Assembly (NCBI RefSeq): GCF_900100335.1
Contig: NZ_FNFE01000002.1
Coordinates: forward strand, 744,001 to 808,000
Direction: 5' to 3'
Origin: Natronorubrum texcoconense
Lineage (GTDB): Archaea; Halobacteriota; Halobacteria; Halobacteriales; Natrialbaceae
DNA length: 64,000 nt
Shown here: piece by piece, positions 1,893 to 37,031 of the stretch
How the letters are laid out: every line of letters begins with the position of its first letter
Numbering within the stretch: the first letter of the stretch is position 1
The notes under the pieces: model-generated
Databases searched by the model: none
What the model was told of the DNA's origin: nothing
What the model saw: the letters and a program-made list of their open reading frames with translations, nothing else
Translations under genes and position numbers: made by a program

Positions 1893-2654
1893 ATGCGATT
1901 AGCAGACAAGACCGTCGTCATTACGGGTGCGGCATCGGGGATCGGCGAGGAGACAGCGAAGCGGTGTGCAGAGGAGGGCGCACGCGTCGTCGTGACGGAC
2001 GTTGACACGCCGGGTGGCGAGGAGACCGTCGCCGATATCGAGGACGCCGGCGGCGTCGCGGAGTTCCGCGAACTCGACGTCACCGACAGCGAGCGATTCG
2101 ACGAGGTTGTCGACGGCGTCGCCGAGGAATATGGCATCGACGTGATCGTCAACAACGCCGGCACCGGCCACCCCGGTGGCAGTCTCGAGGAGGTCGACGA
2201 CTCCGTTCGGGATTTCGTGATCGACATCAACATCAAGGGCGTCTGGAACGGCTGTGCCGCCGCGCTTCCCCACATGAAAGAACAGGGCCACGGCTCGATC
2301 GTCAACGTCGGCTCCCTGGCGAGCATTCTCGGCCTGCCGAAGCAGGCCGCCTACTCGACGACCAAGGCGGCCGTGTTGAACATGACCCGAACGATCGCCG
2401 CCGAGGCCGGACCCTACGGCGTCCGCGCAAACGCCGTCTGTCCCGGCTTCACGGAGACCCAGATGCTCGATCAGTACTTGGCAACGCAAGACGATCCCGA
2501 GGCGGCTCAGCAAGCGATGGCCGAGGATTACCCGCTGAAGCGACTCGGTAAACCGGAGGAGATCGCCGACTCGATCCTCTTCCTCGCCAGCGACGAGGCC
2601 TCCTTCGTCACCGGCCACGGGCTGGTCGTCGACGGCGGCTTCTCGACCTGCTGA
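1893..2654 (+). CDS. SDR family NAD(P)-dependent oxidoreductase
   Basis: 253-residue classical short-chain dehydrogenase. The Rossmann motif TGAASGIG is at 11-18, an acidic residue ends beta-2 (VVVTDVD, about 33-38) and so favours NAD(H), NNAG is at 87-90, the catalytic Ser is near 141 and YSTTK (Tyr154, Lys158) completes the active site. The C-terminus (VTGHGLVVDGGFS) is typical of glucose 1-dehydrogenase/3-oxoacyl-ACP-reductase-like SDRs. Cytoplasmic. It is a single gene with its own promoter, so the substrate cannot be deduced. Family certain, substrate unknown. Confidence 0.9.
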   Translation: MRLADKTVVITGAASGIGEETAKRCAEEGARVVVTDVDTPGGEETVADIEDAGGVAEFRELDVTDSERFDEVVDGVAEEYGIDVIVNNAGTGHPGGSLEEVDDSVRDFVIDINIKGVWNGCAAALPHMKEQGHGSIVNVGSLASILGLPKQAAYSTTKAAVLNMTRTIAAEAGPYGVRANAVCPGFTETQMLDQYLATQDDPEAAQQAMAEDYPLKRLGKPEEIADSILFLASDEASFVTGHGLVVDGGFSTC

Positions 2655-17606: not shown

Positions 17607-17696
17607 ACAGCGATACTACCCGACGAGTGTGGAAAAGTGACACACCGGCAGGCGCAACGGGGACTAAGTCCACGTTCGACTGAACAAACCACGTGC

Positions 17697-17826
17697 GGTG
17701 GCGCGCGCTGAGCCGCGGTGAACCGACGGTGAACCGCGGCCCGAATATGCGCGAGGGATGAGTGAGCGACTGTAAGGAGCGAACGAATCGGTTGGGGAGG
17801 ACGTGGAACCCATCGCCGCCAGCGGC
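17697..17826 (+). ncRNA. Putative structured RNA element, copy A
   Basis: It starts with GGTGGCGCGCGCTG (17697-17710), then a hairpin of GCCGCGGT (17712-17719) with ACCGCGGC (17733-17740). A 52-base block (17757-17808) follows, and a small terminal hairpin GCCGC/GCGGC (17815-17826). Copy B at 36846-37031 has the same order. The 14-mer is identical and the 52-base block has one mismatch, yet the hairpin arms differ at three positions that all keep pairing. No protein frame is shared. Strand is chosen so that the blocks read in the same order; the true transcript strand is not proven. A mobile palindromic repeat is the alternative. Confidence 0.5.
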
Positions 17827-17883
17827 AGCAACACACTCGTTCTGACTAACCCCCATCGAAACAGCATCGTTCACTAAGTAGGT

Positions 17884-36845: not shown

Positions 36846-37031
36846 GGTGGCGCGCGCTGGATCACGGTGACCGATAGGGAACCGTGATCAGAAGCCGTGC
36901 GAGGTCGTCGCGAGTGAAACGAGCGACTGCGTGGAAGACGCGGAGCGTCTTCCTATGGATGAGTGAGCGACTGTAAGGAGCGAACGAATCGGATGGGGAG
37001 GACGTGGAAATCCCTGTTGCCATGATAGCAA
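36846..37031 (+). ncRNA. Putative structured RNA element, copy B
   Basis: GGTGGCGCGCGCTG (36846-36859) is followed by hairpin GATCACGGT (36860-36868) / ACCGTGATC (36881-36889). Then comes an insert of about 53 bases absent from copy A, with two more hairpins (GTCGC/GCGAC, and GAAGACGC-GGA-GCGTCTTC). The conserved 52-base block follows (36958-37009, one mismatch to copy A), and a last small hairpin TTGC/GCAA (37017-37031). It lies between the 3' ends of two convergent genes, so it is not simply a 5' regulatory site. Strand assigned by comparison with copy A. Confidence 0.5.

Follow-up and report, generated by a model that had tools for sequence, protein, structure and literature searches.

The window analysed here, 64,000 nt of the Natronorubrum texcoconense genome (contig NZ_FNFE01000002.1, positions 744,001 to 808,000), contains two members of a dispersed intergenic family of non-coding elements with a common single-strand fold and with resident copies under constraint. 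The core of the element consists of a helix P1 around a hypervariable hairpin P2, followed by a helix P3 that contains tandem G.A pairs and by the conserved block GGYTGGGGAGGNNGTGG. Between sister species P2 together with an optional hairpin module M1, or the whole unit, has been replaced at a fixed site by another paired variant. We explain the family, at a probability of roughly 0.55, as a structured repeat that is dispersed and non-autonomous, that is renewed by recombination between copies and whose folded + strand a factor recognises.

Architecture of the element

Profile and covariance-model searches of the genome (4.64 Mb, 11 contigs) found about 50 copies on both strands. The unit has a length of ~265 nt with weakly conserved ends and a core of ~115 nt. 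In the best copies its left segment begins near GTTCAGTACAGG, 58 nt 5′ of block 1, and after this segment the unit continues with (CCACGTGC)GGTGGCGCGCGCTG, P2, GYGCGAGGGATGAG, P3 and GAATCGGYTGGGGAGGRYGTGG; its 3′ part comprises the segment GCCGCCAGCG..AGCA.CAC.CTCG and the right end GTTCACTA, located ~85 nt past GGGGAGG. Degenerate copies also occur (L059, the second copy of L005, L050). No reading frame is common to the copies, and the minus strand is often stop-free because of composition only. A possible fourth helix in the 3′ segment, GUGGC/GCCA(C), is visible in Natrinema-type copies, where clear covariation was not found, and no terminal inverted repeats (TIR) are visible in copies of the host genus.

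The two window copies, A and B, are described in Table 1. An earlier note, made from the letters of this DNA, had reported a 14-base and a 52-base block common to both copies, with one mismatch in the latter, three compensated differences between the hairpin arms, and the lack of a shared reading frame; all of these are present in the sequence as described. Block 1 of copy B lies within 36846-36859, and the 52-base block starts at 17756 in copy A and at 36957 in copy B, with the single mismatch GGTTGGGG / GGATGGGG. A window scan allowing up to 3 mismatches found the 22-nt core GARTCGGYTGGGGAGGNNGTGG at two places, 17785-17806 and 36986-37007, and nowhere else (chance expectation 0.01). The extent first given to the element was correct for both blocks and P2 but too small: P1 surrounds the reported hairpin, P3 is a third hairpin within the 52-base block, and conservation continues in the 3′ direction, in copy A to ~17842 and in younger copies on to the right end (17869-17876 in copy A). 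The left end of copy A is decayed and its right end intact. A search of the same genome with the element ends matched 17815-17878 of this copy at 91%, and the flank consensus also supports the unit. Module M1 of copy B occurs at about a dozen places in the genome, mostly within element copies.

Table 1. Parts of copies A and B (positions in the window)
Feature	Position	Strand	Basis or remark
Copy A, whole unit	17640-17876	+	extent judged by comparison with relatives; left segment decayed, core and right segment, the latter with terminal GTTCACTA
Copy A, block 1 GGTGGCGCGCGCTG	17697-17710	+	sequence, MAFFT alignment
Copy A, P1 5′ strand	17702-17707	+	partner 17748-17753; covariation, MFE fold agrees
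Copy A, P2, hypervariable covarying hairpin	17710-17742	+	17710-17718 with 17734-17742; covariation
Copy A, P1 3′ strand	17748-17753	+	covariation, MFE fold
Copy A, P3, GAU [GA] stem [GA] AUC with tandem G.A pairs	17757-17789	+	17757-17767 with 17779-17789; covariation, G.A columns
Copy A, block 2 TCGGTTGGGGAGGACGTGG	17788-17806	+	alignment, window pattern scan
Copy A, 3′ segment (CATCGCCGCCAGCG.CAGCAACAC.CTCG)	17807-17842	+	kept within genus, different in distant genera
Copy B, core, second window member	36846-37007	+	full CM match 1-163, 79.9 bits (L014)
Copy B, P1 with enclosed P2	36851-36901	+	P1 36851-36856/36896-36901; P2 36860-36868/36881-36889; MFE fold agrees
Copy B, optional hairpin module M1 (GTCGTCGCGAG..., GGAAGACGC/GCGTCTTCC)	~36904-36957	+	between P1 and P3
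Copy B, P3	36958-36990	+	CM match, MFE fold
Copy B, block 2	36989-37007	+	one mismatch against copy A

Copies are also found in pairs. In the host genus and Natrinema the inverted pairs stand tail to tail, with a short spacer between the copies (L010, L012, L023, L185, L193, L142). Haladaptatus has its cores paired head to head in units of ~330-420 bp (L141, L143, L160, L184, L189), whose outer ends are TIR-like, GTYGYTAGCAAGTCACGACTCC. In Halolamina, Halogranum and others (L198, L199, L150, L140) the core is directly followed by GGTGGGACTGAAAGGGGC or a close variant of it, which may constitute a second repeat motif of haloarchaea. Elsewhere in the window, ARAGORN called a tRNA-Ala with anticodon AGC at 2884-2978 on the minus strand; the Rfam tRNA model gave it no support and it is probably a false positive.

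Covariation and the folded strand

The fold was evaluated on two alignments. Alignment A1 is a plain MAFFT alignment of 25 copies from the same genome, not fitted to structure, while A2 contains 95 copies from other genera and is biased towards structure because it was fitted to the model. In A1 the three-helix structure had 95.6% standard pairs against 81.0% in shuffled alignments, 15 of 22 pairs with double changes against 9.5, 83 double-change cells against 25.3, and a covariation score of 0.502 against 0.222. None of 500 shuffles reached the real value on any of five measures, and slid structures, used as a control, scored about 0.1 or less, about five times lower. All three helices contribute: P1 is 100% paired in the 25 copies and has two pairs with double changes, P2 has double changes in 8 of 9 pairs, and P3 is 99.4% paired with double changes in 5 of 7 pairs and with its tandem G.A columns kept in 24 and 25 of the 25 copies. 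The double changes are of independent types, such as GAU/AUC to GAC/GUC in P3 and C-G to U-A in P1. Alignment A2 agrees, with 94.1% paired and with 424 double-change cells against 129. The change from GAU/AUC to GAC/GUC in P3 is seen in 20 copies.

These comparisons strongly favour a single-strand fold under selection. The selected RNA structure proposed in the earlier note stands as regards selection and fold, and the molecule may be RNA or single-stranded DNA. Random differences in the stem among many copies, which that note had named as evidence against its proposal, were absent: the copies vary greatly yet remain paired. The strong evidence for the fold is this covariation across many copies and not the two window copies, whose folding energies are unremarkable in A (z = -0.95) and not so in B (z = -4.94). 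Folded as single sequences, both nevertheless give the three-helix structure, in each case with the + strand more stable than the minus strand. G-U pairs exceed A-C pairs by 44:4 in A1 and by 130:20 in A2; this excess and the nearly invariant tandem G.A pairs show the + strand to be the folding strand, as RNA or as single-stranded DNA.

Replacement and constraint at fixed sites

How do individual copies change while they stay in place? Comparison of nine species of the genus gave 61 locus pairs with homology in both flanks. Some sites persist across species (for example, L068/L069/L071/L077), and some copies are missing from syntenic sites in sister species. For 19 same-site pairs with unchanged P2, drawn from few species pairs and not fully independent, single changes in helices kept pairing in 25 cases and broke it in 8, double changes kept it in 13 and broke it in 2, and the identity of the core was 0.907 against 0.849 and 0.861 for the flanks. 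The sister-species copy of B (L265) has a compensatory G-C to A-U change in P2. That resident copies are under selection counts against our explanation, as it suggests maintenance of something beyond mobility.

A different picture was seen between genomes G000 and G003, from two sister species, whose same-site pairs have coding flanks 90-95% identical. Here P2, and sometimes the whole element, was replaced in 8 of 14 pairs. Where measured, the identity of replaced P2 was 0.47-0.63, against 0.62 ± 0.08 for unrelated copies, and in most of the eight pairs the new P2 still pairs. At L030/L260 P2 alone was exchanged, with an identity of 97% in the left flank as far as block 1 and of 86% on the right side, while at L019/L257 and L026/L267 the exchange covers everything between both ends. 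The lack of any replacement in 13 same-site pairs between lower-copy species, against 8 of 14 here, points to a need for donor copies in the exchange, as expected of ectopic recombination. No recent donor of a swapped P2 was found within the genome, where the best matches are mostly 0.78-0.88 identical, so that ectopic conversion is not directly seen, and some same-site pairs may represent independent insertions in one intergenic gap instead of swaps. At empty-site junctions in sister species the intergenic DNA is too diverged to show target duplication; because it diverges too fast, element ends and target duplications are not fixed exactly. The replacement of a paired hairpin at a fixed site between flanks ~90% identical lends itself to direct study in close strains, which would reveal how repeats of archaea hold their fold while changing their sequence.

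If the family is a non-autonomous repeat, as we propose, its copies would spread via a mobilising activity supplied in trans, which would recognise the folded + strand, RNA or single-stranded DNA, together with the invariant blocks and not the sequence of P2. The two conserved blocks flanking P2 would allow resident copies to swap their hairpins through ectopic recombination or conversion. Since recognition would go through fold and invariant blocks and hairpins would be exchanged between copies, P2 may be an interchangeable structural clamp and the invariant blocks the recognised part. The invariant blocks offer a handle for finding the recognising protein or machinery. A search of the genome by the outer ends for an autonomous copy found no autonomous partner and no transposase. 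What it found was the left end without a core, in one place with another structured element and in a second place upstream of a gene.

Distribution, gene context and alternative explanations

The element was found in 32 of 61 relatives by a DNA query and in 39 of 61 by the covariance model, with counts per genome from 0 to at least 47. A pattern scan over 84,980 species genomes gave at least 113 stretches, and all 80 matches listed belong to Halobacteria. These listed matches represent more than 14 named genera: Natrinema, Natronococcus, Natronorubrum, Haloterrigena, Halostagnicola, Halopiger, Haladaptatus, Halolamina, Halogranum, Halobium, Halorarius, Halococcus, Salinibaculum and others. Two haloarchaeal plasmids carry it, with no annotated feature beneath the match. 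All 53 genomes from other orders of the phylum lacked it, and viral and phage collections (IMG/VR, phage records) gave no match. The ~50 dispersed copies, the patchy presence and the syntenic sites without a copy support the mobile structured repeat that the earlier note had considered.

Rfam 15 gave no match on the element, with the window at gathering thresholds and six loci at E up to 10, and searches by sequence and topic met no description in open-access papers. Measured against Rfam 15 and the open-access literature, the family is apparently undescribed, and within this scope the remark in the earlier note that no name was known for the element holds. A widespread, apparently unnamed non-coding element with unusually strong covariation is thereby added to Halobacteria, where Rfam is thin. 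It accounts for many unannotated intergenic regions and can confound small RNA and assembly work in the carrier genera.

Gene context was evaluated with a simple codon-usage gene finder for 115 intergenic copies of this and other genomes: 35 lie between convergent genes, 16 between divergent genes, and 24 in sense and 40 in antisense orientation between co-directional genes. The gaps longer than 200 nt in these loci (52 convergent, 77 divergent, 133 co-directional) served as background, and relative to them the copies are scarce in divergent gaps (16 seen, ~34 expected; chi-square ~16) and overrepresented in convergent ones (35 seen, ~23 expected). The upstream gene is on the opposite strand in 56 of the 115 copies, which argues against simple read-through, and the copies have neither a TATA-like peak upstream nor a T-run at a fixed distance downstream.

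These signals weaken the suggestion of a small RNA family. Independently transcribed small RNA genes, that is, host regulatory RNAs that have multiplied, with each transcript functional and P2 conferring individual specificity, would agree with the strong covariation and strand asymmetry, the constraint on resident copies and the persistence of sites over species. However, besides the missing promoter-like signal and fixed terminator and the antisense upstream gene of about half of the copies, relatives range from 0 to more than 40 copies and P2 is replaced wholesale at fixed sites. We regard this explanation as doubtful.

An origin as PATEs from IS200/IS605 ends, mobilised by Y1 (TnpA) transposase and with the folds serving as single-stranded DNA recognition hairpins, is unlikely. 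Haloarchaea are rich in PATEs, and the PATEs and SMRs of Haloquadratum walsbyi are short non-coding mobile repeats without transposase, the former lacking terminal inverted repeats and the latter nesting within other repeats (PMC3119063). Our element is likewise a short non-coding haloarchaeal repeat without transposase, and no obvious TIR was seen in the host genus. The right ends of TnpB loci in the genome have GGGGAGGAYGT in common with block 2, and a single-stranded DNA fold would likewise give G-T over A-C. However, the Y1 transposase is absent (no PF01797 match) in the high-copy genomes G030 and G041 (44 copies each), G043 (39) and G004 (18), so that high copy numbers today do not depend on an IS200/IS605 transposase, although one may have mobilised the element in the past. 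What varies is P2, where a recognition hairpin would be conserved, and the conserved block lies inside the element, with at least 35 conserved nt after it. Compared with PATEs and SMRs, the element also differs in its internal fold, which has a stem that is hypervariable and compensated, in persisting at its sites and in exchanging P2, and no near-terminal conserved palindrome connected with an IS605 relative was found. IS200/605 mobilisation is disfavoured. Derivation from TnpB right ends was rejected, the similarity being 11 nt only. Of the 18-19 TnpB loci of genome G000, most carry GGGGAGGATGTCA or a similar right-end motif; its Y1 transposase matches number only two, both contig-end.

The omega-RNA (sotRNA) of haloarchaeal IS1341-type TnpB (Rfam RF02656, sot0042), the RNA of a mobile element, is also haloarchaeal and structured and has GGGGAGGAYGT near its 3′ end. 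In contrast to it, our element gives no covariance-model match, whereas the TnpB copy in L040 does; it does not adjoin tnpB, and its conserved sequence runs past GGGGAGGAYGT. Another structured interspersed repeat with covarying stems, bcr1 of the Bacillus cereus group (~155 bp), differs in domain of life, sequence and fold, and to our knowledge hairpin replacement at fixed sites is not described for it. REP, BIME and REPIN with RAYT are high-copy intergenic structured repeats, often in inverted pairs (PMC3116915, PMC2817692). The element shares these features, but its unit is ~265 nt instead of tens of nt, its core has three helices, the hairpin sequence is not conserved, and no Y1 or RAYT is needed. 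It works like the dispersed structured repeats, and the Y1 transposase expected in hosts of PATEs and REPINs is absent in several of its high-copy hosts.

The same data could be read with the conserved scaffold as a functional RNA and P2 (with M1) as an exchangeable cassette, the copies forming a hairpin repertoire shuffled by recombination, with the fold selected at every site. This is quite unlikely in our estimation; if true, P2 would be the variable part for specificity or partner recognition in a new haloarchaeal RNA system.

A role as 3′-end or insulator element for neighbour genes, with terminator or RNA-stability hairpins, would agree with the enrichment between convergent genes and with the tail-to-tail pairs between genes (L010, L012, L023, L185, L193). 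However, about half of the copies do not lie downstream of a same-strand gene, antisense placement is as common as sense, the T-run at a fixed distance is missing and the Haladaptatus pairs stand head to head, so we consider such a role very unlikely. Neutral debris of an old repeat, with compensated changes due to chance or shared ancestry, is hardly credible: degenerate copies do exist, but A1, A2 and the same-site results contradict it through the shuffles, the slid structures, the independent types of double change and the 25:8 constraint on resident copies.

Two further structured elements were met during the searches. A 60-nt double-hairpin module, TAGYGCGGGACC..GGTCCCGC..ACCATGCGAACGGG..CCCGTGAGCAGA, occurs at no fewer than 15 places in the genome (L004:2383-2599 on the minus strand, L026, L028, L029, L040, L058, L034, L252), and its sites include hairpin loops of the element, a different structured element and, with reversed orientation, the DNA just downstream of tnpB (L034). 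It has the look of a tiny independent mobile hairpin that prefers structured loops. At L252 (~2200-2620, minus strand; G000:C2 ~378.0-378.4 kb) the left end of our element, GTTCAGTACAGGCGAAGGCGTTACCGC, opens a different structured element with AACGAGCGAAGCGAG..., GTGTTTTTAGCGTAGATTTTTGCG... and a right part similar to AGCAGAACG; the element ends may be common to several core types.
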